From NCBI GenBank assembly GCA_903884105.1, contig CAISDJ010000016.1:62001-126000 (forward strand): a DNA stretch of 64,000 nucleotides, read 5' to 3'. Made by a program: the position numbers and the translations under genes. Each line of letters opens with the position of its first letter. The first letter of the stretch is position 1. This document shows, in pieces, positions 42,324 through 60,821 of the stretch. The DNA is from an uncultured Pseudomonadota bacterium. Lineage in GTDB: Bacteria; Pseudomonadota; Gammaproteobacteria; Steroidobacterales; Steroidobacteraceae. Below the pieces are notes generated by a model. That model did not search any database and was not told the origin of the DNA. It saw nothing but the letters and a program-made list of their open reading frames with translations.

Positions 42324-43124
42324 ATGTCGTTCTCCGCACTGCTCCATTCTCCGGGTCGCGTCCGCCTGCGGCGCGCAGTCAAGCGCGCCTTGCCCGCAGC
42401 CGCAACGCTGTCCGCAGGGGTGCTGCTGGCGGGCTGCATGACGGCCAAGATCGAGGAAAACCGCCAGGCCGCCACCAAGATCACCTCCAATGAAGCCGTC
42501 GTCCTGCTGGCCAAGCCGCACCTCGAGGGTGCGGGGACCGAGAGCGCCTTCCTCGACTGTCTTGAGCGTGAACTCGTCGGCCGCAAGATCTCCGCGGAAA
42601 CCCAGACAGCACAGGAAGCTGGCAAGTGGAAGGATCCACGCAGCCATCTGGCGAACAAGCCGTTCCAGATCTACGCCGATGGAGAGTTCGTTGATGCGCT
42701 GTACCCCTGGCTCGAACCGAGCACGGCACCTGCTAACGCCGACGGACTGACAGCCTTGCTTGCGCGTCCCGGAGTGGGTGAGCGAGTCAGTGCGATGGGC
42801 GTTCGCTACATCATCTGGATTGACGGAGCCACCAAGAAAACCGACGGCGGCGGTAGCGTCGCGTGTGGCGCAGGTCCGGGCGGCGCCGGTTGCATCGGCC
42901 TCGGATGGTGGGAAAAGCAGTCCGACTACCAGGCCACGGTCTGGGACCTGCGGGACAAGATTGGCGTTGGCGACGTCACGACCGCTGTCAGCGGCACGTC
43001 CGTTTTCATTGGCGCCATTGCGCCCATCCCGATCATCATGCCGGTGCAAAGCACGGCCTGCGACCGGATGGCCGCACAGCTCAAGTCCTTCTTGGTGGGC
43101 GACGGCCAGGATGCGGTGAACTGA
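42324..43124 (+). CDS. Lipoprotein heading the kinase/VWA locus
   Basis: 266 residues with a basic N-region, hydrophobic segment and lipobox LLAGC, then TSNEAVVLLAKPHLEGAGTE. Later segments include RYIIWIDG and a Gly/Cys-rich loop (SVACGAGPGGAGCIGLGWW). Composition suggests a compact alpha/beta periplasmic domain anchored to the outer membrane. The upstream region has a TATACT box (42258-42263) and a GGCTGG/CCAGCC hairpin. Family not recognised. First gene of the 42-56 kb locus by position. Confidence 0.75.
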   Translation: MSFSALLHSPGRVRLRRAVKRALPAAATLSAGVLLAGCMTAKIEENRQAATKITSNEAVVLLAKPHLEGAGTESAFLDCLERELVGRKISAETQTAQEAGKWKDPRSHLANKPFQIYADGEFVDALYPWLEPSTAPANADGLTALLARPGVGERVSAMGVRYIIWIDGATKKTDGGGSVACGAGPGGAGCIGLGWWEKQSDYQATVWDLRDKIGVGDVTTAVSGTSVFIGAIAPIPIIMPVQSTACDRMAAQLKSFLVGDGQDAVN

Positions 43125-43350
43125 CCGGCCGGATAGCGTTGCCTTGTGCTCAGTCCGGGAAACCACCGCGGTCTCCCGAGAGAATAAAGCGTTGTAGAGA
43201 CTTGAGCCTGCAGGCTGCGACAGCTGAACGATAGTCAGGTGACGTTCAGGTTCAACGGTTCACACTCGACCGACACGCGCAGTGGACGGGACCGATAACC
43301 GGCTGGATTTATAGACAAGGGACATTGGCGTTCCCGAAGGTGCTGGGCCT

Positions 43351-45021
43351 ATGGATCGAGTAACCACCGTCGTAGCATCGCAGCTGCAGCGCGCGGCCAG
43401 CTTGGCGGCCGTGGGCCTGCTGCTGGTCACGGCAGGTTGCGCCACGTCTTCGTCCTCCAGCAGCTCGTCGAGCGGCATGCCGTCTTCAGGCGGGTCGCCG
43501 TCTTCGGGTTCATCGTCTCCTTCGTCCTCCCCGTCTTCTTCCTCGTCATCGACGTCGAGTGGTTCGGGTAGTCGCCCGAGCACGAGCACAGGCAGGCCGA
43601 GCGGCTCGTCAGGCAGCGCGCCTCAGACCTCCACCTCAACGGGGACGTCAGCGTCGACCTCCGATCCGAGCGGCGCCTCTTCGGCCGGCGGCCTTCCCGG
43701 CACCGAATCGTCAGGGCAATCCGGTGCGACGGGCCGGCAGACGTCTCAGGGCTCTCAGTCAGGCACGCAATCCGGTAGCACCGCCGGACAGGCAGGTCAG
43801 TCGGGTCAAGCGGGGCAGACCGGTTCAACGGGGATGCCGACACCGGGTGGCGGCGCCAGCGCGTCGGCCGGATTTCCCAGCGCGGGGGGCGGTGGCTTGC
43901 CGAGTGCCGGTCTGCCGGGCGAAGGCTCGAGCTCGGCCGGTGGCGAAGCGGGACAGGCCGGTGCGTCCGGCAGTTCATCACCTGCACCTTCTTCTTCCTC
44001 CAGCTCAACCGCCGCCGGTGGCGGCGAAGAAAGCATTTTTGCCAGCACAGGCGCCCAGAGCAGCGCGGGTTCCGAGGCAGGCGGCGTCAGCTCCACATCG
44101 GGCGGCGGAGCGGCGGGCTCGGCGGGCGGCTCGCAAGGAAACGGTGCCGGCGATCCTTCCGGACAGCAAGGCGGGCAGCAGGGCGACCAACAGAGTGGCC
44201 AGCAGGGTGGCCAGGGTGGGGCCGGTTCCGCTGGCGGAGTCCCCTCTGCGGCAGGCGATGGCTCTACCGCGGCCACCGGAGGCGCAGCGGGCGCGGGTGG
44301 CGCGGCGGCAAGATCTCAGTCCGGGCAGCCCGGTGGGCAAGGTGGCGCAGGCGGCGACTCCGCAGCGGGCGGGGTTCCCTCCGCAGGAGGTGCCGGCGGC
44401 ACTGGCAGCAATGGCGGCTCGTCGGGCGCCACAGGCACGGCGGGTGCGGGCGGGAACGCTGGCGGCTCAGGTCGCCCCGCGTCGGGTACCGGCGGCGCAG
44501 GCAGCGGCCCGATGACGGCGGATGAACAGCGAGCGGACATCAACCGTCGCATCGAAGAAACCTTCCGCGTCTTCGACGGTCACCTGCGCAAGGAGCAGGC
44601 GGTGCTCGCCCAGTCTCGCGGCACTGGCTCGGGTGCTGGCGCAGGTGGGGCCGATCCATCAGGTGCGGGCGGTGCAGGGTCAGAACAAGGAGCGGCTGGC
44701 GGTCAGGGCGATCGTCAGGGCAACGGCCAAGGCGACGGTAGAGGCAACACCGAAGGCTCGGGCGAGAAAGACGGCGGCGTTGCCGGCGGTCAGGGCTCCG
44801 AATCTCAGGGAAGTGGCAACCAGCAAGGAGGTGGCGGAGGCGTCGGCGGAGGCGGCAAGGGCGGAGGCTCTGGTCCGTCAACGGTGCCTGCCGGCATTCC
44901 GGATGGCAGCGATGATGACATCGTGGCGCGCCAGCTGCGCGAAGCTGCCATGAAGGAAACCGATCCTGAGCTCCGTGACAAGCTGTGGCAGGAATACCGC
45001 AAATACAAGAAGAGCGGCTGA
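43351..45021 (+). CDS. Ser/Gly-rich low-complexity lipoprotein
   Basis: 556 residues. A signal with lipobox LLVTAGC is followed by a Ser/Pro/Thr-rich stretch and then several hundred residues dominated by Gly, Ser, Ala and Gln (for example GQQGGQQGDQQSGQQGG). Only two segments look ordered: a charged helix near 388-425 (TADEQRADINRRIEETFRVF) and a C-terminal helix near 520-556 (DIVARQLREAAMKETDPELR..KLWQEYRKYKKSG). It could act as a flexible tether or brush between the outer membrane and the machinery encoded next. The reading frame keeps an exported-protein layout from end to end, supporting a real gene despite its composition. Confidence 0.75.
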   Translation: MDRVTTVVASQLQRAASLAAVGLLLVTAGCATSSSSSSSSSGMPSSGGSPSSGSSSPSSSPSSSSSSTSSGSGSRPSTSTGRPSGSSGSAPQTSTSTGTSASTSDPSGASSAGGLPGTESSGQSGATGRQTSQGSQSGTQSGSTAGQAGQSGQAGQTGSTGMPTPGGGASASAGFPSAGGGGLPSAGLPGEGSSSAGGEAGQAGASGSSSPAPSSSSSSTAAGGGEESIFASTGAQSSAGSEAGGVSSTSGGGAAGSAGGSQGNGAGDPSGQQGGQQGDQQSGQQGGQGGAGSAGGVPSAAGDGSTAATGGAAGAGGAAARSQSGQPGGQGGAGGDSAAGGVPSAGGAGGTGSNGGSSGATGTAGAGGNAGGSGRPASGTGGAGSGPMTADEQRADINRRIEETFRVFDGHLRKEQAVLAQSRGTGSGAGAGGADPSGAGGAGSEQGAAGGQGDRQGNGQGDGRGNTEGSGEKDGGVAGGQGSESQGSGNQQGGGGGVGGGGKGGGSGPSTVPAGIPDGSDDDIVARQLREAAMKETDPELRDKLWQEYRKYKKSG

Positions 45022-45022
45022 C

Positions 45023-46294
45023 ATGACGAATGCGATGACATCAGAGCGGCAACTCGTGACCGCGCGCTGGCGGGGAGTGACCTTGGCGGCGTGCGCGGCG
45101 ATGAGTCTCGGTGCCTGCGTCGTCGAAACCCGTCCTGTCGACCGCATCAACGCCGTTCAGGCCACGACGGAGATCGCCGCCAACCAGTTGCTCGACGTTG
45201 GCGTGCAGCTGCTCGATCCCAATGTGCCTGATGACGAAAAGACCCAGGAGAACCAGAAGATCTTCCCGGATGTGCGCAAGGCAGAATCGCGCTACATGCC
45301 GATGCGATTGCGCAGCACGCTTGAAGGGACCGGCCAATGGGGCCAGGTGCGGGTCGTGCCCATGGAAGAAGACTCTCTCGATGTGATGGTCTCGGGAAAG
45401 ATCCTCGAGTCGAATGGCATGGACCTGAAGGTGGAGTTCACTGTCCGCGATGCGGCCGGCCGCATCTGGTTCACCAAGGTTTACCAGGCGCCGGCTGACA
45501 CGCGCTCCTATCGCGATACCAGCGGCCGTCCCCGAGACCCGTTCCAGAACCTCTACTCCGAGGTTGCGAACGACATGCTGGCTGCACGCCAGAAGCTGGC
45601 GACGAACGATCTCGAAAGCATCCGCCGGGTGTCCGACCTGCGCTTTGCATCGGATCTCGCGCCCTATGCGTTCAAGGGTTACCTCAAACAGGACAAGAGA
45701 GGCATCTATCAGGTCCAGCGCCTGCCCGCAGAGGGGGATCCGCTGCCTGCGCGCATCCAGCTCATCCGCGAGCGTGATTACGCCTTCGTGGATACGCTCA
45801 ATGAGCACTACGCACTGTTCAGCGACAACGTGGCGGAGCCGTACCAGAACTGGCGGCGGTACAGCTACGACGAGATCGAACAGGAAACGTCGGCGAGACG
45901 CTCTGCGATGAGCCGCAAGCTGCTCGGAGCCGCGGCCATCGTTGCTGGCGTCGTCGCGGGCGCCAATTCGAATACCTACGTGGGCAGCGCTGCGGCAACT
46001 GCGGGCATCATCGGTGGCGTGTATGCAATCAAGAGCGGATTCGACAAGGCGGCCGAAGCCAAGATGCATTCGGACTCGTTGAAGCAACTCGGGCAGTCTT
46101 TCCAGTCCGAGGTGCAACCGATGGTCGTCGAGGTGGAGGGGCGGACGTTGCAGCTGACGGGCTCCGCCGAAGAACAATTCCACGAATGGCGCCGCTTGCT
46201 GAAGGAACTGTACGAGAACGAAACCGGAATTCCGGTCTCGGCCCCGGATGCCGTGGCGGGCCAGGGCAGCGAGGGGAATGCCGCGCGTCGCTGA
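45023..46294 (+). CDS. Lipoprotein with late hydrophobic hairpin
   Basis: 423 residues, signal with lipobox MSLGAC, one base after the previous gene's stop. The body starts AVQATTEIAANQLLDVGVQLLDP, includes RYMPMRLRSTLEGTGQWGQVRVVP and a SGKILESNGMDLKVEFTVRDAAGRIWFTK stretch that resembles lipoproteins with an unassigned beta-sandwich. Near 310-345 a Gly/Ala-rich hydrophobic pair (AAAIVAGVVAGANS, AATAGIIGGVYAI) could insert in a membrane. Function not recognised; the context ties it to the kinase that follows 46 bases later. Confidence 0.75.
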   Translation: MTNAMTSERQLVTARWRGVTLAACAAMSLGACVVETRPVDRINAVQATTEIAANQLLDVGVQLLDPNVPDDEKTQENQKIFPDVRKAESRYMPMRLRSTLEGTGQWGQVRVVPMEEDSLDVMVSGKILESNGMDLKVEFTVRDAAGRIWFTKVYQAPADTRSYRDTSGRPRDPFQNLYSEVANDMLAARQKLATNDLESIRRVSDLRFASDLAPYAFKGYLKQDKRGIYQVQRLPAEGDPLPARIQLIRERDYAFVDTLNEHYALFSDNVAEPYQNWRRYSYDEIEQETSARRSAMSRKLLGAAAIVAGVVAGANSNTYVGSAAATAGIIGGVYAIKSGFDKAAEAKMHSDSLKQLGQSFQSEVQPMVVEVEGRTLQLTGSAEEQFHEWRRLLKELYENETGIPVSAPDAVAGQGSEGNAARR

Positions 46295-46340
46295 GCGATG
46301 GTCATCTGCTGGCTTAGTGGTTCCTCAATTCGGGCATCCC

Positions 46341-48677
46341 ATGATCATGAACAGCGGGCACGAGCTGTCTGCAAGATTCGTTTTGGTTCGTCCCCTGGGG
46401 CAGAGCGCTGTGGGAGAAGTCTGGCTCGCCGAGGACCGCGAACTGGGGGGGCACGTTGCGCTCAAGCTCCTGGCCGCCCGGGTCGCGGGCAATTCCGTCC
46501 TTGGAGCGGCCCTCGAGCGCGAGTGTGAGCGCCTCAAGTCGCTCGTCCATCCGAACATCGTGCGCGTCGACGGCTTCTATCGCGAGGGCGACCAGGTCTG
46601 GATCGCGATGGAGTACCTCGCCGGCGGCGATCTCACGCAGTATCGGGGGCGGCCTGCCCATGAAGTGCTCCACGCGGTGATTCCCGTCGCAGAGGCGTTG
46701 GCCTATGCCCATGCCGCTGGCATCGTGCACAGGGACGTGAAGACCACGAACGTGCTGATGTCGATCGATGGCGGTCCGCGCCTCGCTGATTTCGGCCTCG
46801 CGCTCGCCATGGACGGCGCGCCCGACCTCAAGCTGGGTGCCGGTTCGCCGTACAGCATGAGTCCGCAGCAATTGAATGGCGCCCCCGCAATGGCGGCAGA
46901 CGACGTGTACGCCTTTGGCGTGCTGCTGTACGAGTTGCTGTCCGGGTATCCGCCTTTCTATCCCGACATTGATGCCACGAAGGTCCAGTCGCAGCCCGCG
47001 CCACCGCTGGTGTCGCGGTATCCCGTGGCAGAGGACGTCACGGTGCTGGTGCATTGCTGCCTGGAAAAGGATCCAGAGCAGCGACCCGAAATGGCAGCGG
47101 TTGCAGGCCAGTTGCGGGCTGCCCTCGAAGCAGAGCGCAGTCGGCGCACGGGTCCGCCGGCGACTGTAGCGCCTGTTCTCAAGCCTCCTCCCGTCACCGA
47201 AGTGCCGTTGCAGGCCGGGTGGCAACGGAGCGCGACAGCGAGCGCAGTTCCGACGCCCGCCGAACTCCGGGGTGAGGGGTTCCGGAAGGGCCTCACCGCA
47301 GCCGCCTTGCTGCTGTTGCTTGCGGCGGCTGGCGTCGTCTTCTTCGTGTTGCCCAATCGGGTCGCTGCCCCTCCGCCGGTTGTGGCGGCGGCACCGGCCC
47401 CCGCGCCGAAAGTCGAAGACAAAGCGCTGACACCCGCGGAGCTGGAGGCGCTGGCGGTACTGAAGCAGCAGGCGGACGATGTGTTCGAGGCCCTCACGCC
47501 CCGCGTCGACGCCCTCAAGGCGAGGGCGGTTGAACAATGGGCAACCGACCCCTGGGCCGCCTTGCATGTGGGCATCTCTTCGGCTGCCGCGAGCTACGCG
47601 GCACGGGATTATGCTGCGGCCACGAGCAGCTACGAAGCTGCAGCAAAATCGGTCACTGAGATTGAGGCCCGCGCAGGCGAAGTCCTGAAGGAAGCCCTTG
47701 TCCGGGGCGCGGCGGCGCTAGATTCGGGCAACGCCGCTGCTGCACAGGAAGCCTACGAGCTGGCATTGAAGCTCGCGCCCGGCCAGGTCGCTGCCACTCG
47801 GGGAATGCGTCGGGCGCAGTCGCTCGACGCCGTCATGGCGCTGCTCAAGCAAGCCGAAATCGATGAAAAAGAAGAGCGTCTGACCGCCGCAGCAGACGCC
47901 TTTGGCCGTGCAGCAAAACTCGACCCTGAAGCGCGTCTTGCGACCGATGGGCTGGCGCGGGTGCAGGCGCGAGTGGCAGGTGATGCCTTCGCAGCCGCCA
48001 TGGCCGGCGGTTTTACCGCCATGACGGCGAAGGACTATGCCGGCGCCCGGAAGGCCTTTGAGCGGGCGCGTGCCATGCGGACCCAGGCGCCGGAAGTGCA
48101 ACAAGCCCTGCAGCACCTGGCGCAGGAAGAGCGTACTGCGACGATCGCGTCCCGCCTCGCCAGCGCCCGCTCCCATGAGGCAGCAGAGCGGTGGCAACAG
48201 GCACTCGCGGACTATCAGGCCGTCGCCGCGCTCGACTCGACGGTGGCGGCAGCCCAGCAGGGCGAGGAGCGGACCGGCCCTCGTGCGACGCTCAACGACG
48301 AGTTGCAGCTGTACGTGACCCAGCCCGAGCGTTTGTTCAGCGCACCAGTGCGCGATTCGGCGACGGTCACGCTCAATCGCGCCAAGGCGTTGACCCCCGG
48401 ACCGGTCCTCGCCAAACAGATCGCGACGCTCGATGAATGGCTCAAGCGGGTGTCGGTCCCCGTACAGGTGGCGCTCGAATCCGACAACCTGACGCAGGTG
48501 ACCATCTATCGCGTCGGGGATCTCGGGCCGTTCACACGCAAGGCCGTCGATCTGCCTCCCGGCAAGTACACCGTCGTCGGTACGCGGCCGGGCTTCCGCG
48601 ACGTTCGCCGTGAGATCACCGTAGTACCCGGGGCCGCGTCGGCCCCGGTCGTCATTCGCTGTGAGGACAAGATTTGA
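46341..48677 (+). CDS. Transmembrane serine/threonine protein kinase with periplasmic repeats
   Basis: 778 residues. An N-terminal Hanks-type kinase domain (1-265) has all key residues: K42 in VALKLL, HRDVKTTN at 130-137, DFG at 150-152. One membrane helix lies at 316-337 (GLTAAALLLLLAAAGVVFFVLP). The roughly 440-residue periplasmic part is Ala-rich and helical with TPR-like units (AAAQEAYELALKLAPGQ, AGARKAFERAR). It ends in a PEGA-like beta domain (DLPPGKYTVVGTRPGFRDVRREI). Two ATGs (46341, 46347) are possible. Its stop overlaps the TTG start of the next gene. Likely partners are the FHA proteins of the same locus. Confidence 0.92.
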   Translation: MIMNSGHELSARFVLVRPLGQSAVGEVWLAEDRELGGHVALKLLAARVAGNSVLGAALERECERLKSLVHPNIVRVDGFYREGDQVWIAMEYLAGGDLTQYRGRPAHEVLHAVIPVAEALAYAHAAGIVHRDVKTTNVLMSIDGGPRLADFGLALAMDGAPDLKLGAGSPYSMSPQQLNGAPAMAADDVYAFGVLLYELLSGYPPFYPDIDATKVQSQPAPPLVSRYPVAEDVTVLVHCCLEKDPEQRPEMAAVAGQLRAALEAERSRRTGPPATVAPVLKPPPVTEVPLQAGWQRSATASAVPTPAELRGEGFRKGLTAAALLLLLAAAGVVFFVLPNRVAAPPPVVAAAPAPAPKVEDKALTPAELEALAVLKQQADDVFEALTPRVDALKARAVEQWATDPWAALHVGISSAAASYAARDYAAATSSYEAAAKSVTEIEARAGEVLKEALVRGAAALDSGNAAAAQEAYELALKLAPGQVAATRGMRRAQSLDAVMALLKQAEIDEKEERLTAAADAFGRAAKLDPEARLATDGLARVQARVAGDAFAAAMAGGFTAMTAKDYAGARKAFERARAMRTQAPEVQQALQHLAQEERTATIASRLASARSHEAAERWQQALADYQAVAALDSTVAAAQQGEERTGPRATLNDELQLYVTQPERLFSAPVRDSATVTLNRAKALTPGPVLAKQIATLDEWLKRVSVPVQVALESDNLTQVTIYRVGDLGPFTRKAVDLPPGKYTVVGTRPGFRDVRREITVVPGAASAPVVIRCEDKI

Positions 48678-51082
48678 GCTTCACGCTGACATTGAGCGAT
48701 GCGCTGGGCGAGAGGACCTTCACCCGCGAGGAGTTCCCCTTGAGCCTCGGAGGTGCCGGCTCGACCATTGTGCTTGCGGGCGGGTTCAACGGCCCCGCGG
48801 CATGGTGCGGACTGCATGAGGAAACACTGTTCCTCCAGCCCGCGGAAGGTGTTGAGCTGGGTTACAACGGTGTGCCGGCCCGCAGTTCCGTGTGGTTGAA
48901 GTCGGGTGATGTCGTGACGCTGGGCGCGGCGCGGCTGCGCCTTGGTAGCCGCGACGGTCGCCCTGTCCTCAACGTAGAGGACGGCAGCGTAGGCAACATC
49001 ACCGCGCCACCTGTCGTCGAGTCGGGGCAGCGGGTTTCCGGCGGTACGGACGTGGACGAAGAGCGCATCGAAGCCATCCGCTTTCGCTCCGAAGGCGCCG
49101 CTACGGTGGGTAGCCGCAGTTTCAACCCCCGTCGGGTCGTCGTGCCGACCCTTGCAGTGCTCTTCGCGGCAGCGATCTGGTTCGTATTCACGTCCGTGTC
49201 GCTCACCGTCACAGTGGCATCCGGTGCCGACCGCATCTCACTGAAGGGCGGGCTGCCTGCGCTTGGGTTGGGCTCGCAATACCTGCTAAGACCCGGTCAG
49301 TACCTGCTGCAAGTCGAGCGAGCGGGGTACAAGCCGTGGACGCAGACGGTCAATGTGACTCAACAAACGAACCAGCGCCTCGAGGTTGCTCTCGAGAAAT
49401 TGCCGGGCTTGCTCAGCATCGAAGTACCGGTGGCATCGACCGTCAGCATTGACGGGCTGGAGGTTGGATCCGCGCCCGGGGTCTTTGAAGTGCCGCCGGG
49501 CAAGCGAACTGTTGCCATCCGTGCGCCACGCTATCGAGCCTTCAGCGCCGAACTGGATGTGGAGGGGGCAGGCGTCAAGCAATCGTTGGCGCCCGAGCTC
49601 GTTCCAGCGTGGGCGAAGATCAGTGTCATCTCCGAACCTGCCGGCGCAGAGCTGTATGTCAGCGGTGAACTGCGCGGCGTCACTCCGCTTGAGACGGAGA
49701 TTCTGGAAGGCAGCCAGCCGCTCGAACTTCGGCTCAAGGGGTTCACTCCGTGGGCGACCGATCTCAGCGTGGTGGCCGATCAAGTGCAGACGGTCGGCCC
49801 GGTACGCCTCGGATTGCCTGACGGTCGGCTGGTGATCCGGAGCAATCCGGCCGGCGCCAGCGTGACCGTGGGCGGTGCGTATCGAGGCCAGACCCCGCTC
49901 GAGTTGCCGGTGCGTCCCGATCTGTCGCAGTCCATCGTCCTTGCCAAGCCCGGGTACGAGCCGGCCGAGCGCAGCGTCAGCGTCGGGCCGGGTGCGCGGC
50001 AGGTCATCGACCTGGAGCTGACTGGCATCTACGGTGAACTGACCGTGGCCGCCCAACCGGTCGACGCGCAACTGTTCGTGGACGGTGCGCTGCGTGGCGC
50101 CGCCAACCAGCAGCTGCGGCTGACCGCGACGACCCACGATATCGAGATCCGCAAGGCCGGGCTCATCACCCACAAGGTGTCGGTTACTCCGCGTCCTGGT
50201 CTGTCCCAGGCCGTGAACGTCACGCTGCTGACAGCGGAGGAAGCGAAGGTGGCCGCGATCCCTGTGGCGATCCCTTCCAAAGCAGGCGAACTCAGGTTGA
50301 TGCCCGCCGGCCGGTTCGTGATGGGTAGTTCACGCCGCGAACCCGGGCGTCGTGCCAACGAAGCGCAACGGGAAGTAGAGCTCAAGCGGCGTTTCTATCT
50401 CGGTACCCGCGAAGTGACGAACGCGGAGTACCGCCAGTACCGCGCGGATCATCGCTCTGGGTTCGTCGGCGCACACTCGCTCGACCTTGACCGGCAGCCC
50501 GCAGTCAATGTCGGCTGGCAGCAAGCCGCCGCGTTCTGCAACTGGCTCTCGGAGCAGGAGGGCCTGCCCGCCGCCTTTGAAACGAAGAATGGCGCGCTGG
50601 TACCGATCGTGCCGGCGACGACCGGCTATCGCCTGCCGACCGAGGCTGAATGGGAATGGGCGGCCCGCTACGAACGGGGCACCGCGACACGCCGGTATCC
50701 GTGGGGCGAGGCGCTGCCCGTGGCGCCGCGGTCGGGCAATTATGCCGACTTCTCTGCTCGGATCGTCATCCAGGACGTGATCCCGGACTACGACGACGGC
50801 TATCCCGCCGCAGCGCCCGTCGGTTCATTCGCCGCGAATGCCCTCGGTCTGTTCGACATGGGAGGCAATGTCGCCGAGTGGTCGCAGGACCTCTACACTG
50901 TGACTACAGACGCCAGCGTGCTAGCGATCGATCCGGTGAGCGGTGGCGAGGTCGGCCAGCGCGTGATTCGCGGATCGAGCTGGCGGCAATCCGGTTTGAC
51001 TGATTTGAGGCTAACCGCCCGTGACTTCGGGTCTGCGACCCGGACCGATCTCGGCTTCCGGCTGGCCCGCTACGCGGAGTGA
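48674..51082 (+). CDS. Transmembrane FHA-like/PEGA/SUMF1-fold protein
   Basis: 802 residues, TTG start inside the kinase stop. Residues 1-105 are a cytoplasmic beta domain with FHA-like spacing (FPLSLGG..., GYNGVPARSSVWLKSGDVVTLGAARLRL). One helix is at 153-173. The periplasmic part has about five PEGA-like repeats (for example LVIRSNPAGASVTVGGAYRG) and, from about residue 536, a formylglycine-generating-enzyme/SUMF1 fold (LMPAGRFVMGSS, GYRLPTEAEWEWAARY, GGNVAEW, RVIRGSSW). The paired active-site Cys of true FGE are absent near RGSSW, so a binding rather than oxidising role is likely. Confidence 0.88.
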   Translation: MSFTLTLSDALGERTFTREEFPLSLGGAGSTIVLAGGFNGPAAWCGLHEETLFLQPAEGVELGYNGVPARSSVWLKSGDVVTLGAARLRLGSRDGRPVLNVEDGSVGNITAPPVVESGQRVSGGTDVDEERIEAIRFRSEGAATVGSRSFNPRRVVVPTLAVLFAAAIWFVFTSVSLTVTVASGADRISLKGGLPALGLGSQYLLRPGQYLLQVERAGYKPWTQTVNVTQQTNQRLEVALEKLPGLLSIEVPVASTVSIDGLEVGSAPGVFEVPPGKRTVAIRAPRYRAFSAELDVEGAGVKQSLAPELVPAWAKISVISEPAGAELYVSGELRGVTPLETEILEGSQPLELRLKGFTPWATDLSVVADQVQTVGPVRLGLPDGRLVIRSNPAGASVTVGGAYRGQTPLELPVRPDLSQSIVLAKPGYEPAERSVSVGPGARQVIDLELTGIYGELTVAAQPVDAQLFVDGALRGAANQQLRLTATTHDIEIRKAGLITHKVSVTPRPGLSQAVNVTLLTAEEAKVAAIPVAIPSKAGELRLMPAGRFVMGSSRREPGRRANEAQREVELKRRFYLGTREVTNAEYRQYRADHRSGFVGAHSLDLDRQPAVNVGWQQAAAFCNWLSEQEGLPAAFETKNGALVPIVPATTGYRLPTEAEWEWAARYERGTATRRYPWGEALPVAPRSGNYADFSARIVIQDVIPDYDDGYPAAAPVGSFAANALGLFDMGGNVAEWSQDLYTVTTDASVLAIDPVSGGEVGQRVIRGSSWRQSGLTDLRLTARDFGSATRTDLGFRLARYAE

Positions 51083-51086
51083 ATTC

Positions 51087-51392
51087 ATGAAAGCAAGAAA
51101 CATGAGAACGGTCATCGCCGTCGTCGCATCGCTGGCAGGGCTCGCAGCGTTGGCTGCAGCGCCGGCGACTTCTCCACCGGCACCCGCGGTCACACAACCC
51201 GCCAAGGCTGAGCCTGCCAAGCCGGCGGCTGCGCCGACGACTGCGGCGACGCCGCCGACCTCGCCATCAGCGCCCAAGCCGGCGGCAACCACCACACCGA
51301 ATGCGCCTGCGTCTGGCGCATCGCCCCAGCGCTTCGTCCCGAGCGAATCGGTGCGCGCAGACTTCGACGTCTCTTTCCCCATCGATATCTGA
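51087..51392 (+). CDS. Small exported Pro/Ala-rich protein
   Basis: 101 residues, ATG four bases after the previous stop. Signal-like N-terminus (MRTVIAVVASLAGLAALAAAPA), a Pro/Ala/Thr linker of about 50 residues, and a tail with normal composition, RFVPSESVRADFDVSFPIDI. The tail looks like the conserved functional piece, perhaps a peptide that docks on a partner. It sits directly before the proton-channel gene. Confidence 0.65.
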   Translation: MKARNMRTVIAVVASLAGLAALAAAPATSPPAPAVTQPAKAEPAKPAAAPTTAATPPTSPSAPKPAATTTPNAPASGASPQRFVPSESVRADFDVSFPIDI

Positions 51393-51410
51393 CCGGTCCT
51401 TGAGAACGCC

Positions 51411-52208
51411 ATGAAAAAGTTCACGTCCTCCGATTTCCTGTTCGAGGTCTTTGCGCTCGTGATCATCATCACGATCGTGCAGGGCATCTATGCGACGGTG
51501 ATCCGGCCAACGGCCGAGGGTATCCGGCAGAAGGATCTCGTGGCCATGGCAGGCGATTCGAACTACGTGCCCGAGCTGCATGCGTGGGTCGTGATCAAGG
51601 ACTACGAGCCCGAGGTCTGCTTTGTCTTTGCGGCGTGGGCCCTCACCATCATGGGCCGCCGCGCCATGCGCGTAGGCAGGCAGCGCAAATTGCTCGACAC
51701 CGACATCCTGCAGCTGCGTGAAGGGATGAAGATCCTTCCGGAGGATTCGCGGGAGTATGCACGGCAGATCGAATCGCTGTCACCCGAGACCCGCAGCTTC
51801 CTGCTGCCGCGAGCACTGCTGACGGCACTGCATCGCTTCGGCGCAACCCGCAACATCCAGGATGTGGCGACGGCGGCCCGCAGCGTCTGCCAGCATGAGA
51901 ACGACCGCCTCGATTCCGAGTTGTCGATGGTGCGCTTCGTCGCGTGGGCCATCCCCGCCATCGGCTTCGTCGGCACGGTGCGCGGCATCGGGGCTTCGCT
52001 GCAGCAGGCTCACAAGGCCGTCGAAGGCGACGTATCGGGTGTCGTGGCCGGCCTCGGCACGGCGTTCAACGCAACGTTGGTCGCGCTGTCGCTCAGCATC
52101 CTGGTGATGCTCGTACTCCACCAGCTGCAACTGCGGCAGGAACGAATGGTGCTTGATACCGAGGACTACCTCGACACGCACGTCGTCAGGCATATGCTCT
52201 CCCGCTGA
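51411..52208 (+). CDS. MotA/TolQ/ExbB-family proton channel
   Basis: 265 residues. Helices at about 8-30 and 68-85, then a cytoplasmic stretch, then the family's two conserved channel helices: VRFVAWAIPAIGFVGTVRGIGASL near 175-198 and VVAGLGTAFNATLVALSLSILVML near 210-235. This matches TolQ/ExbB TM2-TM3, so it should conduct protons with a single-helix Asp partner. No tolR/exbD/motB gene is present; the two VWA proteins downstream supply candidate partner helices. Confidence 0.9.
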   Translation: MKKFTSSDFLFEVFALVIIITIVQGIYATVIRPTAEGIRQKDLVAMAGDSNYVPELHAWVVIKDYEPEVCFVFAAWALTIMGRRAMRVGRQRKLLDTDILQLREGMKILPEDSREYARQIESLSPETRSFLLPRALLTALHRFGATRNIQDVATAARSVCQHENDRLDSELSMVRFVAWAIPAIGFVGTVRGIGASLQQAHKAVEGDVSGVVAGLGTAFNATLVALSLSILVMLVLHQLQLRQERMVLDTEDYLDTHVVRHMLSR

Positions 52209-52253
52209 TCACGGCATCCTTCGCCACGCACGCCTCAGGAAACGGTTGCCGCA

Positions 52254-53663
52254 GTGACATTGCTCGCCCTCGAACTCAACGACGCCGGACTGATCCTCGC
52301 GCGCATTGCCGCGGGCGGCGAGAGCGAAATCCTGGCCGAAAGTCCGGGCTTCGCGCTGCTTGAGGGCAACACGGTACTCACCGGAGTAACGGCCGCCGCG
52401 CGCGCGCGCCAACGGCCCTTGTTCGCCCACAGCACGTTCTGGCGCGAGCTGGGTGTGACGCCCTTGCCCAGGCCAACGGCTACCGTGCAGACCACGGCGG
52501 ATGTGGCATTCACTCATCTCTCTGACCTGCTGAAGCCGCTCTCCTCCGGAACGGAGCGCATGGTGATCGCGGTGCCGGCCGGCTACTCCCGCGACCAGCT
52601 CGGCATCCTCATCGGCATGGCGAATGAGGTCGGCGTGCCGCTCGTGGGGCTGGTTGATGCCGGGCTCGCTGCGTCATCGCTCGAGGCGGCCCCGCGCCGC
52701 GTCCTGCATCTCGACCTCGAATTGCATCGAGCCGCGCTGACGGTGCTCGAGCATCAGGGCGATGGTGAAGGCCTCCGGCGCAGCCACTTCGAGCTGCAGC
52801 CGCGACTGGGCTGGCTCTCGCTGCAGCAGGCGTGGATCGAGGCGATCGCAGAAACGTTCGTCCGCAGGACGCGCTTCGATCCCCTGCACCAGGCCGTCAC
52901 TGAACAGGCGCTGGTCGACTTGCTGCCAGGCTGGCTCGCGGCGCTCAAGGATGCAGAAGCGGTTGATGCCGAGATGATCTTCGGCGGCCAGACGCACCGC
53001 GTCGAACTCGCCCGCAAGCAGATGATCGACGCAGTCCGGGGCAAGTATTCAGACCTGTTGCGGCTGGTGCAGTCGGCCCGTCCGGCCGGAGAAGCGGTTG
53101 AGCTGCGGCTCGGCCAGCGACTCGCCGATCTGCCGGGAGCGATCGAACAGTTTGCCGCGCTCCGTGATTGCGAGCTCAAGGTGCTTCCGCGCGGCGCGGC
53201 GGCGCGCGGCGCGTTGCTGCATGCCCCACACATCGAAAGACCAGCTGATGCGCTGACGTTGGTCTATCGTCTCCCCGTTCCTTTCGCAGCGGGTGCGGGC
53301 CTGGTCAACGCACCTGGCGAGACCCTGGCAGTTGAGCATCGCCCGACGCACGTGCTCTTTGCCGGGCGCGCATGGCCGATTACCGCAGAGCCGCTCAAAC
53401 TCGGCTGGGCTGTCCCCGAAGGGCAGCGCCGCCTCACGGTGCCGGCGGGAGCGCCCGGCGTCTCACGGGTCCACTGCACGCTCGTCCGCCACGATGGCGT
53501 GACCACCCTTGAGGACCACAGTACGTATGGCACCTTCGTCAACGACGAGCGAGTGAAGGGCACCACAGTGCTGCGCGTCGGCGACCGGTTGCGCCTCGGC
53601 GCGCCGGGCGTGCAACTCGAACTCATCCAGCTGGTGAACGAGCATGGCACGCCGTCAGTTTGA
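52254..53663 (+). CDS. Actin/Hsp70-fold-like protein with C-terminal FHA domain
   Basis: 469 residues from GTG. The N-terminal 330 residues (ALELNDAGLILARI, RMVIAVPAGYSRDQLGILIGMANEVGVPLVGLVDAGLAAS) read like the actin/Hsp70/FtsA ATPase fold, with HLDLELHRAALTVLE as the second beta-hairpin; ATP binding is not proved. The C-terminal 85 residues are an FHA domain (GVSRVHCTLVR, LEDHSTYGTFVN) that should bind phosphothreonine. No membrane helix, so cytoplasmic; a natural reader for the nearby kinase. Its end overlaps the next gene by 20 bases. Confidence 0.82.
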   Translation: MTLLALELNDAGLILARIAAGGESEILAESPGFALLEGNTVLTGVTAAARARQRPLFAHSTFWRELGVTPLPRPTATVQTTADVAFTHLSDLLKPLSSGTERMVIAVPAGYSRDQLGILIGMANEVGVPLVGLVDAGLAASSLEAAPRRVLHLDLELHRAALTVLEHQGDGEGLRRSHFELQPRLGWLSLQQAWIEAIAETFVRRTRFDPLHQAVTEQALVDLLPGWLAALKDAEAVDAEMIFGGQTHRVELARKQMIDAVRGKYSDLLRLVQSARPAGEAVELRLGQRLADLPGAIEQFAALRDCELKVLPRGAAARGALLHAPHIERPADALTLVYRLPVPFAAGAGLVNAPGETLAVEHRPTHVLFAGRAWPITAEPLKLGWAVPEGQRRLTVPAGAPGVSRVHCTLVRHDGVTTLEDHSTYGTFVNDERVKGTTVLRVGDRLRLGAPGVQLELIQLVNEHGTPSV

Positions 53664-54738
53664 CGTTTTCAGCATGTCGTTCCTCGACACGATCTGCTGC
53701 GCGTTCGGCGCCATCGTGCTGCTGTACATGATCATCAATGCCTCGAGCGGGCGCAGCTTCCAGAAGGACACGGCTGCGCTGCGTGCGGAGGCGAACCGGC
53801 TTGAACAGGAGGTCCTCGAGGGCTACCAGTCACTGGCCGACGCCCGCAATGCCATGAGCGAGACCACTGACGAAGCCGCCCGCATGGAAGGTCTCGGTAC
53901 GCGCGTGCTGGAGGAAACCGAGAAGCTGAAAGTGGAGCTCGCCGAAGCCGACGGAACGACGCTCTCGCGCCGCGAGGCGATCGAGCGACTGAAAGCGGAT
54001 CTCAAGGCGCTCGATGAAGGGACGCGCCGTCTCGAAGGAGGCGCGCAGAGTCCGGGTGCGCCCGGCAATCGGGTACGCGGTTTCATCGGCCAGGGCGATC
54101 GCCAGTACCTCACCGGACTCAAGGTCGGTGGCTCGCATGTCTTCATCCTGGTCGATGTGTCGGCAAGCATGCTGGATGAAACCGTCGTCAACGTGCTGCG
54201 GATGCGCAACATGACGGATTCGCGGAAGCTCCTTTCCGAGAAATGGCAACGAGCGGTCGGCACGGTCGACTGGTTGCTCGCCCAAGTGCCCAGCGCCTCC
54301 AAGTTCCAGGTCTACGCGTTCAACACGACCGCGACGCCGCTCGTCAAGGACAGTGCGGGCAAGTGGCTCGAAGGCAGCAATGCCGAAGTGTTGAATTCCG
54401 CAGTCATGGCGCTGCGCGAACGCGTCCCGAAGGACGGGACGAGCCTCGAGAATGCGTTCGCGGCGATCACGACGATGACGCCGAAGCCCGACAACGTCAT
54501 CCTGATCACGGACGGTCTGCCGACCCAGGGCGTGTCGGCACCGCTGCTTGCCAAGGCGGTAGACGGCGAGGCGCGACTCAAGCTCTTCGAGCGCGCAATG
54601 GGCCGCTATCCACGCGACATCCCGCTCAATGTCATCTTGCTGCCGATGGAAGGCGATCCGTCCGCACCCGCGGCCTACTGGGTCGCCTCCCGCAATACCG
54701 GCGGCTCGTTCCTGAGTCCGGCGAGGGACTGGCCATGA
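53644..54738 (+). CDS. VWA protein with ExbD/TolR-like N-terminal helix (1)
   Basis: 364 residues. The N-terminus FDVFSMSFLDTICCAFGAIVLL is a single membrane helix with an Asp at its entry and two Cys, followed by a coiled coil (about 38-130). A von Willebrand A domain starts near 164: the MIDAS motif is complete in appearance (DVSAS, Thr in KDGTSLENA, Asp in ITDGLPTQG). The placement of Asp resembles ExbD/TolR/MotB helices that pair with the upstream channel. Ends in a 4-base overlap with its paralogue. Confidence 0.85.
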   Translation: MARRQFDVFSMSFLDTICCAFGAIVLLYMIINASSGRSFQKDTAALRAEANRLEQEVLEGYQSLADARNAMSETTDEAARMEGLGTRVLEETEKLKVELAEADGTTLSRREAIERLKADLKALDEGTRRLEGGAQSPGAPGNRVRGFIGQGDRQYLTGLKVGGSHVFILVDVSASMLDETVVNVLRMRNMTDSRKLLSEKWQRAVGTVDWLLAQVPSASKFQVYAFNTTATPLVKDSAGKWLEGSNAEVLNSAVMALRERVPKDGTSLENAFAAITTMTPKPDNVILITDGLPTQGVSAPLLAKAVDGEARLKLFERAMGRYPRDIPLNVILLPMEGDPSAPAAYWVASRNTGGSFLSPARDWP

Positions 54739-55790
54739 AGCGACGGCAGGAATTCCAGGTCTTCAGCATGTCGTTCCTCGACACGATCTGCTGCGCGTTC
54801 GGCGCGGTGATCCTGTTGTTCATGCTGAGCAAGTTCGGCGAACCGAAGGCGCTCGAACAGGCGCGGGAGCAGCTGGAGGGCCAGATCGTCGCGCTTGACC
54901 AGGAGCTGAATGAACTCAAGGGCCAGTCGGTCGTGCTCAATCGCGACCTCAATTCGAAGCAGGAACAGGTCTCGGAAGAGAAGGCGCGCATTGCCCGGTT
55001 ACGCGGCGACCTGAGCACTATCCAGGGCCGCTATGCCGCGTCGAAGCAGGAATCCGAGGTGGCCAACCAGATCCAGGGCCAGCTGGTCGCCGCGCAGCAG
55101 CAGCTCAGCGACGAAATGAAGCGGCTGCTCGGCAGCAACTTCCGGCGCCGGCCCGACGACGAGACCATCGGCGGCATTCCCGTTGACAGCGAATATGTCA
55201 TCTTCCTCATCGACACTTCGGGAAGCATGTTCAACTACGAATGGCCGCAGATGCTGCAGAAGGTCGAGGAGACGTTGAACATCTACCCGAAGCTGAAGGG
55301 CTTCCAGGTGATGAACGACGTCGGTACGCCAATGTTTCCGAGCTATGCCGGCAAGTGGATTCCGGACAGTCCGGGGCAGCGCAAAACCGTAATCGACCGG
55401 CTGCGCAACTGGAATGCGTTCTCCGCGTCGAATCCGGCGGGCGGCATCGTGTCTGCCATCCAGACGTACTGGGCCAGGGACAAGAAGATCAGCCTCTACG
55501 TGTTCGGCGACGAATTCACCGGGTCATCCATCGATTCTGTCGTCAAGACAGTGGACCTCGTCAACCGTGAGGGGCAGACCGGGGAGCGGCTGGTCCGCAT
55601 CCACGCCATCGGCTTTCCGGTCCGGCCGGATGCGCCCCAATACACCAGTATCCGCTTCGCAACGCTCATGAGGATTCTGTGCGCGCGGAATGGTGGGACC
55701 TTCGTCGGACTTCAGGAACCGCGAGGCCGGGGAGGGATCCGTATTGGCCAGGCGGAGAAGAAGGAACAAGCCGGCACGCCCCCTACGTAA
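54735..55790 (+). CDS. VWA protein with ExbD/TolR-like N-terminal helix (2)
   Basis: 351 residues, same plan as the preceding gene: FQVFSMSFLDTICCAFGAVILLFML helix, long coiled coil (about 35-130, QLEGQIVALDQELNELKGQ), VWA domain from about 153 (IDTSGSMFN). The helix is nearly identical to its neighbour, but the VWA domains have diverged and the MIDAS threonine is less clear (ASNPAGGIV). Ends with a basic tail. Suggests a heteromeric pair. Confidence 0.85.
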   Translation: MKRRQEFQVFSMSFLDTICCAFGAVILLFMLSKFGEPKALEQAREQLEGQIVALDQELNELKGQSVVLNRDLNSKQEQVSEEKARIARLRGDLSTIQGRYAASKQESEVANQIQGQLVAAQQQLSDEMKRLLGSNFRRRPDDETIGGIPVDSEYVIFLIDTSGSMFNYEWPQMLQKVEETLNIYPKLKGFQVMNDVGTPMFPSYAGKWIPDSPGQRKTVIDRLRNWNAFSASNPAGGIVSAIQTYWARDKKISLYVFGDEFTGSSIDSVVKTVDLVNREGQTGERLVRIHAIGFPVRPDAPQYTSIRFATLMRILCARNGGTFVGLQEPRGRGGIRIGQAEKKEQAGTPPT

Positions 55791-55831
55791 TGGGCGTTGC
55801 ATCGGTGATCGCGAAGGAGTAACAAGTCTTC

Positions 55832-56629
55832 ATGACGCGCAGCTGGCAAACAGGGGGATGGATTGCGCTGGTCGCTGCATTAGCGTCACTTTCGGGATGC
55901 AGCACCGTACGTCTCGAGGCTCGCCCGAACATTCCCCAACCGGTCATCACGAAGATCCCGGTGTCGGTCGGCCTGTTCATGCCGATCGAATTCTCGAGTT
56001 ATGTCTACAAGGGCGACCGTTACGGCTTTAAATGGGAAGTCACCATGGGAGCCGCCCAGAGCGAAGGCGTGTCGCGCCTCTTCGCTGCCATGTTCGAGAA
56101 CGTGGTCCCCGTCGACAACATCACCGCCGCAGCGGCGACCGCTCCCGGAATCCGTGCAATTCTCGAGCCCGCAGTGGAGGATTTCTCCTTCATCACGCCG
56201 CGCGATGCGGGCACGCAGTTCTATGCCGTCAGCATCAAGTATCGCGTGAGCGTCTATACCCCCGATGGGCGACTTGCCGAGTCCTGGCCCTTTACGGGGT
56301 ATGGCATTGTCCCCGCCACCGGCATGAGCGCGGAGAAGCCGCTTGCACGTGCGACTTCCCTCGCCATGCGCGACGCGGCCGCCAAGCTGGTCGTTGAATT
56401 CCGTGAGCAGGCCATCATCCGGGGCCTGCTGCCTGATGGCCCCAAACCGGATACGTTGGGCGGTGCGGCAGTCTCCGATATCGCGGCAGCCGGATCCGCA
56501 TCTGGAGCTGCAGCGCCCGAGCCTGCCGCTGGCAGCGCCCCCTCCCCGCAAGGAGGCGAGGGAACGTCAACCCCCTCCGGCACGCCGGCTGCGCCCATCG
56601 GGCCGGCGGTCAGTTCTTCAAGTCCTTGA
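55832..56629 (+). CDS. Lipoprotein closing the kinase/VWA locus
   Basis: 265 residues, lipobox SLSGC. The compact domain (VSVGLFMPIEFSSYVYKGDRYGFKWEV, RLFAAMFENVVPVDN, FYAVSIKYRVSVYTPDGRL) resembles outer-membrane lipoproteins with a YceB/CsgG-like beta fold, though I cannot assign a family. A Pro/Ala/Ser-rich tail of about 60 residues follows. Its 3' end overlaps the convergent TPR gene by 20 bases, marking the end of the locus. Confidence 0.75.
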   Translation: MTRSWQTGGWIALVAALASLSGCSTVRLEARPNIPQPVITKIPVSVGLFMPIEFSSYVYKGDRYGFKWEVTMGAAQSEGVSRLFAAMFENVVPVDNITAAAATAPGIRAILEPAVEDFSFITPRDAGTQFYAVSIKYRVSVYTPDGRLAESWPFTGYGIVPATGMSAEKPLARATSLAMRDAAAKLVVEFREQAIIRGLLPDGPKPDTLGGAAVSDIAAAGSASGAAAPEPAAGSAPSPQGGEGTSTPSGTPAAPIGPAVSSSSP

Positions 56630-57956
56630 AGGTCTGCTGGTAACGGACGTTCGGTGTGTCGACAGGCACGCCGTTTTCAAACCGCGGGCGATACAGCGCC
56701 TCGCGAATCGACGCCAGTGTTTCCCGCTCCATCCGCTCCGTGGCATCGCTTTCCACAATGCGGGGATCCACGACCTCTCCGGTGCTCGTAACGGTGAACT
56801 CCATCGTGAGCTTGCGATCGATGAGCTTCTCCGGCGAGCGACTGCGCTCGAGATAACGGCGTGCGACCTGCGGTTGTGCGTAATCAAGCATTGCAGGGAA
56901 GCTTAAGGGATCGCCGACCAGCGACGTCTCGGTCGTGGTGGCCTGGGGCAATGTCAGGGCCTTGGCATAAAATTCCAGCGCCTTGCCGCGGTTGCTCTTG
57001 AGCAGGTACCAGTCGCCGGAGTCGATCAGGGCCACGCGAAACACGATTGGGCTGCGAGGGCCGTTCGCTTCCATGATCTGAACGGCTCGCACCATTGCTT
57101 CCTCACCTTCTGAGGGCAACCGGGAGCGGCTCAGCAAACGAAACCCGCCATTCGCAGGTACCCGCACCAGTCCGGCATTCGTGAAGAGCAGTTCGCGAAT
57201 GAAGCTCCTGCCGAGACTGCGCAGCGGATTGACCAGTTTCGGGTCGTTGGGGCCCGCCTTGGTTTCGATTATCTGGATGGAGCGACGATAGAGTTCCCTG
57301 CTGATCTCGAAAAATCCCCAACGCGAATACCAGTCGCCACCGACGTCCTCGATCTCAGCGAAACGCAGGTCGTTCTTTCCATAGGCGGTTTCCGCGGTCT
57401 GCAGCAGGTTCTGCATTTGCTGATGGGCTTCGAGGCCGCGGCCCGACTCGATGAGGCTGTTGGCCAGCTGCAGCCGCAGGCCGTTCTGGCTGACGTCGAA
57501 CAGGCCGTTCTGCCGCTGACTGACAAGCAGGGCGCGCTCGAGGATCTGGGTGGCTTCCACGTGGCGATTCGTCGCGGCGAGCGTGAGACCGAGACCGCTC
57601 AAGGGTTCTTCAAGCCCAGGAGCCAGCGCGCCGCCCTGCTTCTCACGAATCTTCAAGGCGGTGATGAAGTTCGCTTCCGCATTGGGGAAGTCCTTGATCT
57701 GGTACTGCACGCCACCGAGCCGGATCAGTGCTTCCGCCATGGGCAGCGATTGTTCCCCGTCCTTTGTACGGGTCAGGTCGACCAGTTGCTGCGCGGGGGA
57801 CAGGGCGTCCTCCCAGTGCCTCTCCTTGATGCTCGCCTGGTACCTGAAGAGCGGAGCGTCGCGGTCGCGATCAGTTGCATCGGCCGCCATGGACGGACCG
57901 TTTGCGGCAAGCAGCGCCACGCACCACAGAAGAGGACGATATCGACTACGGTCCAT
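56610..57956 (-). CDS. Exported TPR protein with TonB-like C-terminus
   Basis: 448 residues with a signal peptide (PLLWCVALLAANGPSMAA), several TPR repeats (MAEALIRLGGVQYQIKDFPNAEANFITALKIRE, QILERALLVSQRQN), and a C-terminal energy-transducer-like domain (LTMEFTVTSTGEVVDPRIVESDATERMERETLASIREALYRPRFENG) as in TonB/TolA-fold proteins. Convergent with the VWA locus, so its part in it is uncertain. Confidence 0.82.
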   Translation of the reverse strand: MDRSRYRPLLWCVALLAANGPSMAADATDRDRDAPLFRYQASIKERHWEDALSPAQQLVDLTRTKDGEQSLPMAEALIRLGGVQYQIKDFPNAEANFITALKIREKQGGALAPGLEEPLSGLGLTLAATNRHVEATQILERALLVSQRQNGLFDVSQNGLRLQLANSLIESGRGLEAHQQMQNLLQTAETAYGKNDLRFAEIEDVGGDWYSRWGFFEISRELYRRSIQIIETKAGPNDPKLVNPLRSLGRSFIRELLFTNAGLVRVPANGGFRLLSRSRLPSEGEEAMVRAVQIMEANGPRSPIVFRVALIDSGDWYLLKSNRGKALEFYAKALTLPQATTTETSLVGDPLSFPAMLDYAQPQVARRYLERSRSPEKLIDRKLTMEFTVTSTGEVVDPRIVESDATERMERETLASIREALYRPRFENGVPVDTPNVRYQQTFKDLKN

Positions 57957-58030: not shown

Positions 58031-59158
58031 TCAAAGAGTGGACTGAGCCAATTTGGCCCACTTTTGTGGGCGGCCCTGCTGCGGTGCGAAGAGGTAGTGG
58101 GAGACCAGCCATTCCTGCCCCCTCCCGTAGCCCCACAGTTCTGCGCAGGCCATGAAGAACACCCGCCAGTACACCCACCACTTGCGTGCGGCAGCCGCCC
58201 CATAAGTCGAGGCCATGATGGGCATGATTCGATCCCGGTGGGCATCCATGTTGGCAAGCCAGGCTTCACTGGTCTTCTGGTAGTGGCGGCCGTCCACATG
58301 CCAGTGCTTGAGTAGGCGCACATCCTTCTGGAAGTAGGTCAACAGGGAATCACTTGGCATGATGCCGCCCGTGAAGAAGTACCGCCCCATCCAGTCGCGT
58401 TCGCTCGTGACGTCGAACGGATACGCGTAGGTCCTGTGCGTGAAGATGTGCACGAACAGCGTGGCGTGCGGGCGCATCCACTCCGAGATGCGGGCGAGCA
58501 GCGTCGCGTAGTTGCGCATGTGCTCGAACATCTCGACCGAAACCACCCGGTCGAAGCGTTCGTCGGGCGGGAACTCCAGCACGTTGGCATCACAGGTGAT
58601 GACGCGGACGTTGCCGAGTCCCCGCTCGCGCGCAGTGGCTTCGATATGCAGGCGCTGCGTTCGCGAGTTCGATACGGCCGTGATGCGCGCAGCCGGATAG
58701 TGCTCGGCCATCCACAACGTCAGCGATCCCCAGCCGCAACCGAGTTCCAGAATGTCTTCGCCGTCCTTGAGCTGCGCCCGCTCGCAGGTCAGAGACAGCA
58801 TCCGCGCTTCCGCAACGTCCAGTGACGTGACACCGGGGTCGAAGTAGCAGGAGGAGTACTTGCGATGCTTGCCGAGGACCATGCCGAAAAAATCGCTGGG
58901 CAGTTCATAGTGCTGCTCGTTCGCCTCGCGGGTGTTGATGGCTACGGGGCTCGCTTTCAGTTGCTCGACGAACTGCATGAAGTGCCGGTGCTGCGCTTCC
59001 GTGTCGCCCTTGTTCTCGTCCCGCAGGCGCTCTGTCAGTAGCCGGCGGATGCCGATCCGGATCATCGCGTCCGGCAGCAGATCGCGTTCCATCAGCCAGA
59101 ACGGCAGCGAAGTGCCGGATTCAGCGGGGGGAGCGGCGTTGGTGATGGCAGTGGTCAT
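58031..59158 (-). CDS. Cyclopropane-fatty-acid synthase-like methyltransferase
   Basis: 375 residues. SAM motif [44 protein letters not shown] and [14 protein letters not shown] mark the CfaS/CMAS family that adds methylene or methyl groups to lipid acyl chains. Last of four coupled genes (DUF1475, DUF2062, DUF1295, this), a set seen beside lipid-modification enzymes in other proteobacteria. Confidence 0.9.
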
Positions 59159-59176
59159 GTCATGGTCCGCGGTGGG

Positions 59177-60474: not shown

Positions 60475-60821
60475 GGTTGCCTTGCGGGCTTGAGGATCGC
60501 GCTGACCGGTTCGTCAGGGCGGAGCCTTGCCAGTTGCAGCAACACAAAGGCGGACATCGCCATCGTGCCCAGCGCCATGATTGCGATGAACCAGCCGAGG
60601 CGCGCGACCGAGCCTCGCTCCTTGAACCAGACCCAGACATAGAACGTCAGGAACCCGTAGTAGGCGTCGATGAGCGTGGCGAGCGTCCACCAGCGATCCG
60701 GCCCGAGGGTGATGCCCTGCCAATCCCAGACCGCCTGCTGGGTGCTGGCCCAGAAGGTGTAACCAAATAGCGAGATCAGCATGAAGCCGAACAGGCAGCG
60801 CAGGAGCGTGCGGGACGGCAT
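60471..60821 (-). CDS. DUF1475 membrane protein
   Basis: 116 residues, about three helices (LLRCLFGFMLISLFGYTFWAS, TLIDAYYGFLTFYVWVWF, WFIAIMALGTMAMSAFVLLQL). The DUF1475-like WWTLATLIDAYYGF segment is clear. AAGGAAAC precedes the ATG at 60821. First gene of the lipid operon. The frame extends upstream without support. Confidence 0.82.
   Translation of the reverse strand: MPSRTLLRCLFGFMLISLFGYTFWASTQQAVWDWQGITLGPDRWWTLATLIDAYYGFLTFYVWVWFKERGSVARLGWFIAIMALGTMAMSAFVLLQLARLRPDEPVSAILKPARQP

Follow-up and report, generated by a model that had tools for sequence, protein, structure and literature searches.

The window examined here is a stretch of 64,000 nucleotides from an uncultured bacterium of the family Steroidobacteraceae (GenBank assembly GCA_903884105.1, contig CAISDJ010000016.1, positions 62,001 to 126,000 of the forward strand). 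The host assembly contained 3.7 Mb in 144 contigs and was 99% complete. We describe a locus in this window that probably encodes a trans-envelope motor of the MotA/TolQ/ExbB type. It contained 11 open reading frames on the + strand (g1 to g11), with the first start at exactly 42324 and the last end at exactly 56629. The junctions from g1 to g11 measured 226, 1, 46, -4, 4, 18, 45, -20, -4, and 41 nt, so that 9 of 10 fell within -20 to +46 nt. A first-pass annotation had reported 11 co-directional genes with tight junctions here, and this arrangement was confirmed. Its domain assignments were right apart from details when set against Pfam, profile comparison, and a lipobox scan.

g7 (51411 to 52208) encodes the MotA/TolQ/ExbB channel. 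It passed the Pfam cutoff for MotA_ExbB (3e-14; unrounded, 3.2e-14). Residues T189 and T222 align to T145 and T178 of TolQ (chains 8odt/9kpz), and both pore threonines are invariant (108/108 each). g9 (53644 to 54738) and g10 (54735 to 55790) encode VWA motor subunits A and B. Each contains a transmembrane helix with an aspartate (the invariant D15 in g9, D16 in g10), a coiled stalk, and a VWA domain. The VWA domain of g9 was matched by Pfam (2e-6) and has a full metal ion-dependent adhesion site (MIDAS). That of g10 is diverged, with a DxSxS motif. Its Pfam match was below the cutoff (0.038); a profile comparison with g9 (probability 99.8) and the MIDAS residues confirm it as a VWA domain. 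The two N-terminal helices carry the motif S-F-L-D...C.FGA. The helix Asp is conserved in 122/122 g9 and 119/120 g10 sequences, the MIDAS residues of the VWA proteins are nearly invariant, and g10 lies directly 3' of g9 in 119/120 loci. No TolR, ExbD, or OmpA domain was matched by Pfam among the scanned locus proteins. A sequence search of g9 and g10 against solved structures returned essentially coiled-coil matches only. As read from sequence, g9 and g10 are the motor's own "B" subunits, with a TolR/MotB-like Asp helix. The earlier view of the VWA proteins as the moving part is supported by the motor Asp helix that they carry themselves, a feature it had not noticed.

Two bitopic proteins precede the channel. 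g4 (46341 to 48677) encodes a Hanks-type Ser/Thr kinase domain (Pfam Pkinase, 9e-42), a transmembrane segment at about 318 to 336, and a periplasmic TPR region with a terminal PEGA-like segment. The kinase domain is optional; the remainder is core. g5 (48674 to 51082) encodes a cytosolic head, a transmembrane segment at about 155 to 173, periplasmic PEGA repeats (Pfam PEGA, 6e-45), and an FGE/SUMF1 fold (Pfam FGE-sulfatase, 1e-42). The head is a degenerate FHA-like domain (hhalign probability of 96.7 against the FHA domain of g8), as previously annotated. Across the aligned region of 102 g5 members there is no conserved cysteine, and essentially all of them lack the FGE catalytic cysteine pair, which is expected close to the C terminus. 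The fold therefore fits a structural part. g5 scored 127 bits against GldK/PorK, under the NCBIfam equivalog cutoff of 350 bits.

The lipobox scan was positive for g1 (42324 to 43124; LAGC), g2 (43351 to 45021), and g11 (55832 to 56629). g2 is a Ser/Gly-rich, low-complexity lipoprotein with a conserved C-terminal segment. For g3 (45023 to 46294), the scan chose LAAC at 24, and the nearly invariant Cys is C32 (SLGAC). The structure model of g3 (predicted local distance difference test [pLDDT], 85) contains an N-domain and, after it, a long helical hairpin rich in glycine. The modeled N-domain resembles TolB-N, CsgG, PelC, and FlgT (Z of about 6.4 to 9), which is suggestive; Foldseek gave no match to g3 below 1e-3. 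g6 (51087 to 51392) is a small Pro/Ala-rich protein with a single hydrophobic N-terminal segment. It is often present. A further gene (56610 to 57956, - strand) is convergent to the unit and encodes a TPR protein with a TonB_C domain. It adjoins the locus in several arrangements, in other families precedes the core, and has strong matches only in genomes with the motor locus. It belongs to the unit, the extent of which is corrected here. Together with g1 and g11, two lipoproteins that go together, it forms an accessory set of variable position, which may precede the core, follow it, or converge on it. In Pseudohalioglobus sediminis (L113), the gene directly 3' of g1 (13449 to 14828) resembles by eye an exported BepA-type metalloprotease.

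g8 (52254 to 53663) is optional. It encodes an actin-fold domain and a C-terminal FHA domain (Pfam, 8e-14). The model of g8 (mean pLDDT, 94.6) matched an Hsp70 nucleotide-binding domain over 326 residues (Z of 31.8; root mean square deviation of 2.8). It is an Hsp70-type nucleotide-binding-domain fold joined to FHA. This confirms and sharpens the actin fold that had been noted before. Hsp70 (DnaK) shares the fold of this domain, but in g8 the FHA domain occupies the place of the substrate-binding part. A scaffold role appears likelier than an ATPase role, because the nucleotide-loop glycines were not evident by eye in the family consensus. The FHA loops keep S-x-x-H and Asn (GVSRVH and FVNDE). 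In the window protein of g4, the VAIK Lys, HRD Asp, Asn, and DFG Asp are all in place.

The genes were retrieved together across genomes. Among 40 relatives, g1, g3, and g9 were present in the same 27 and absent from the same 13. A neighboring methyltransferase, used as a control, was present in 39/40 irrespective of the motor. The profile was identical even in two genomes with g1 away from the core (G030 and G036). Strong matches in 370 Gammaproteobacteria genomes numbered 29 for g9 and 26 for g3, with 25 genomes holding both (25/30 positives, by list comparison). Related stretches found in a scan of GTDB genomes numbered at least 578. Records labeled Acidobacteriota, Desulfobacterota/"Deltaproteobacteria," and Myxococcales are among the best 80. 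Among the matches listed, the closest named ones to g9 were a metagenome-assembled genome (MAG) labeled Lysobacteraceae and species of Steroidobacter and Peristeroidobacter.

We compared 76 loci that span g3 to g10 in full, from Gammaproteobacteria, Acidobacteriota, Desulfobacterota, and Myxococcota. They were selected for g3, g9, and g10, and the counts of those three follow by construction. g4 and g5 were present in all 76, g2 in 73, g7 in 74, g6 in 63, and g8 in 64. The order g2-g3-g4-g5-(g6)-g7-(g8)-g9-g10 was that of the window in 73/76, and in one more the sole difference is a stand-alone kinase gene. These sequence comparisons indicate that the locus is a real inherited unit and not a chance assembly, because both the synteny of the 76 loci and the identical phylogenetic profiles speak for one unit. 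The first-pass annotation had proposed a single envelope machine with a proton channel, to be checked by co-occurrence across genomes. Linkage and shared distribution were found, an independent distribution is contradicted, and the conserved pore threonines agree with the proposal. Two loci of one family (L134 and L137) have g7 relocated from before g8 to after g10 (g8-g9-g10-g7). The locus also occurs, with 49% identity to the window, on a contig titled as a Klebsiella pneumoniae MAG (CAMAXE010000004.1, L103; label doubtful).

Many loci lack the kinase domain of g4 but retain its transmembrane, TPR, and PEGA part. As for g8, some loci have lost the FHA motif, others the entire FHA domain, and others the gene itself. 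We coded 82 loci for a catalytically intact g4 kinase and for the S-R-x-H motif of the g8 FHA. The state was coded as unknown for L079, because of an assembly gap, and for L111, because of a contig edge, and L055 (FHA in a separate frame) was coded as FHA positive. Both features were present in 32 loci and neither in 43; three had the kinase only and four had the motif only. Dependent and independent models were compared by the Pagel test on a tree of g7, g9, and g10. The likelihood ratio (LR) was 39.7 in favor of the dependent model, and the maximum of 200 simulations under independence was 16.4. The LR was 33.9 when limited to loci holding g8. Control traits gave an LR of 3.6 for g6, 7.5 for g8 gene presence, and 10.9 for g11. 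A pseudokinase and a decayed FHA domain occur together in L026 and L066.

Several points weigh against the best explanation given below. The Arg after the first Gly of the g8 FHA domain (G-R site) is Trp in the window and variable in relatives; phosphothreonine binding is therefore not assured. The control LRs for g1 (20.9) and the g5 head (14.2) were raised, though well under 39.7; those for g1 and g11 were probably affected by truncated loci. The pairing of kinase and FHA is broken in seven loci (L078, L114, L019, L052, L021, L032, and L096). Tests of correlated evolution may mislead where events are few, and parsimony gave 11 to 12 changes. Several loci are MAG fragments on fragmentary contigs.

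The pattern of loss supports putative kinase-to-FHA signaling. The kinase appears to be an optional, bolt-on regulator that evolves together with FHA. It is not counted as part of the core, because many lineages keep the motor core without kinase and FHA. The energized part would likewise have a role without this signaling, because the Asp and both Thr are kept where kinase and FHA were lost. The first-pass annotation had placed the device under control of the kinase. Signaling through FHA gains indirect support from the correlated evolution; an obligate controller is not supported, since many lineages keep motor and scaffold without the kinase or a functional FHA. One genome (G032) contained divergent copies of the locus (L036 and L038), one with kinase and FHA and the other without kinase and g8. 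Stand-alone kinase genes of about 440 amino acids, additional to the g4 kinase, lie near the locus in L033 (1669 to 2991) and L041 (17016 to 18323).

The motor core is not new, because a TolQ-only family with paired TPH-vWA proteins (Idiomarina type) was deduced in 2025 (PMC12204202). It was putative and unnamed there, and its function was given as unknown. Compared by its described features, it has a tolQ-like gene beside two different vWA genes, a helix with a proton-binding Asp, no tolR/exbD, and a mainly proteobacterial distribution, as here. The kinase, FHA, Hsp70-fold, PEGA/FGE, and lipoprotein partners are unnamed in that paper, which never mentions a kinase and in which the single "FHA" match is the protein name FhaC (PMC12204202). 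The earlier statement that this set is not a named system is half right: the TolQ and paired-vWA core had been described, though without a name, and the statement holds for the kinase, FHA, sulfatase-modifying-factor fold, and lipoproteins. Our search, mostly of open papers and without preprints, found no publication uniting channel, VWA, FHA, PEGA, and FGE domains. Added beyond the 2025 core are the full machine (bitopic TPR/PEGA and PEGA/FGE-fold scaffolds, a g3-type lipoprotein, and the TPR-TonB_C partner), the Hsp70-FHA protein g8, and the optional, co-evolving kinase/FHA pair. The attached scaffold, lipoproteins, and optional phosphorylation switch appear to be previously undescribed.

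The locus shares its channel domain, two pore threonines, and Asp-bearing partner helix with the 5:2 motors MotAB, TolQR, and ExbBD. It differs in having two different partners, in each of which a long coil bears a VWA head, whereas those motors have an OmpA, TolR, or ExbD domain. In the Agl-Glt system of Myxococcus, AglQ/S is TolR-like. That system resembles the locus in its motor, bitopic FHA protein, TPR proteins, and TonB C-terminal domain, but no Glt homologues were identified at this locus. Its GltG, which acts in gliding beside a TolQ-type motor, is bitopic with a cytosolic FHA domain and a TonB C-terminal domain (PMC3169522). The type IX secretion and gliding system (PorLM-PorKN, GldKLMN) also combines a proton motor, lipoproteins, and a periplasmic protein of the sulfatase-modifying-factor fold; that fold is found in PorK of the hub ring, which PorLM drives (PMC12635249). 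Here, by contrast, a bitopic inner membrane protein with PEGA repeats carries the FGE fold. Neither PorN or PorM nor any secretion genes were recognized, and the GldK score was far under its cutoff.

The gene unit, the conserved residues, the folds, and the correlated evolution of kinase and FHA are established. The best explanation, and the one we consider probable, is a trans-envelope 5:2 motor (MotA/TolQ/ExbB type) with a VWA pair, scaffolds, lipoproteins, and an optional kinase/FHA switch. The ring that conducts protons would be made of g7, and the dimer inside it would pair one g9 with one g10 through their Asp-bearing N-terminal helices. Proton flow may directly rotate this pair. The coiled stalks of ~95 residues, which would be about 14 nm long as continuous helices, would place the VWA heads far into the periplasm. 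There the heads, with their intact MIDAS metal sites, may grip, pull, or turn a partner. This partner is most likely a lipoprotein assembly, presumably at the outer membrane, of g3 and g2, joined by g1/g11 and the TPR-TonB_C protein in lineages that have them. As bitopic proteins, g4 and g5 would hold or scaffold the motor. Where present, the cytosolic g4 kinase may put phosphothreonine on a component of the machine, and the g8 FHA would read it and switch or recruit the motor. The force could serve a gliding/export-type task or outer membrane maintenance. More tentatively, at somewhat less than even likelihood, we propose a proton-driven envelope motor of several phyla with an obligate VWA-head pair and a PEGA/sulfatase-modifying-factor-fold scaffold. 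In some lineages it would have a kinase/FHA switch through a pseudo-Hsp70 that controls its own complex by phosphorylation, and its task would be transport, adhesion, or an outer membrane function.

A narrower reading, compatible with the best explanation, gives the same motor the job of surface gliding, adhesion, or polymer or protein export, with the FGE-fold protein as a ring or scaffold. The fold of PorK, the layout of GltG, the subthreshold match of g5 to GldK, and the suggestive fold that g3 has in common with CsgG, PelC, and FlgT all point to it. We hold it as a minority possibility, since no adhesin, secretin, or track protein was recognized at the locus and the flanks vary among lineages. 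It is less likely again that the channel-VWA complex is a sensor, in which strain on the VWA heads would alter the channel or scaffold and the kinase and FHA would report to the cytoplasm. Kinase and FHA are indeed linked to bitopic scaffolds that have domains in the periplasm, and VWA/MIDAS sites are typical ligand-binding sites. However, the complete proton path (Asp and two Thr) is kept even in loci without kinase and FHA.

The remaining readings are improbable. Phage defense by a Zorya-like ZorA/ZorB motor would account for a weak match of g7 to ZorA models (7e-6) and generic kinase matches of g4. The gene order is conserved across many genera, though, with no plasmid copy, and a PADLOC scan of 10 locus proteins gave no match to ZorB, ZorC, ZorD, or ZorE. 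Other defense systems were rejected too, the weak ZorA and generic kinase matches being the only ones. A mobile element was likewise rejected, with no plasmid match. There is even less to commend a type VI secretion pathway, in which kinase and FHA would serve threonine phosphorylation beside an unrelated channel. The g8 FHA matched TagH weakly, but the sheath gene VipA is missing from the genome itself and was found in only 2/40 relatives. Chance or loose adjacency of unrelated envelope units is just as improbable. The member families are diverse and g1/g11 and the TPR gene shift around the core, yet the profiles are identical even where g1 is distant, and the order is conserved across phyla. 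A substitute for Tol-Pal was rejected as well; TolB_N was present in 39/40 genomes, whether or not they held the locus.

If the motor reading is right, a widespread envelope motor joins the short list of the flagellar stator, Tol, Ton, Agl, Gld/Por, and Zorya. The gene set is conserved in many little-studied bacteria and probably serves a proton-driven pull or turn across the cell envelope. Related motors with and without the kinase/FHA switch would constitute a natural experiment. The switching of a 5:2 motor and the target of the VWA heads would become testable in cultured bacteria, e.g., Steroidobacter and Pseudohalioglobus.

Beyond the TPR-TonB_C gene, the window contained a run of genes on the - strand (58031 to 61103). 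Named by eye, these encode a methyltransferase of the CFA type, which matched in 39/40 relatives irrespective of the motor, together with membrane proteins, one of them DUF1295-like and the others small.

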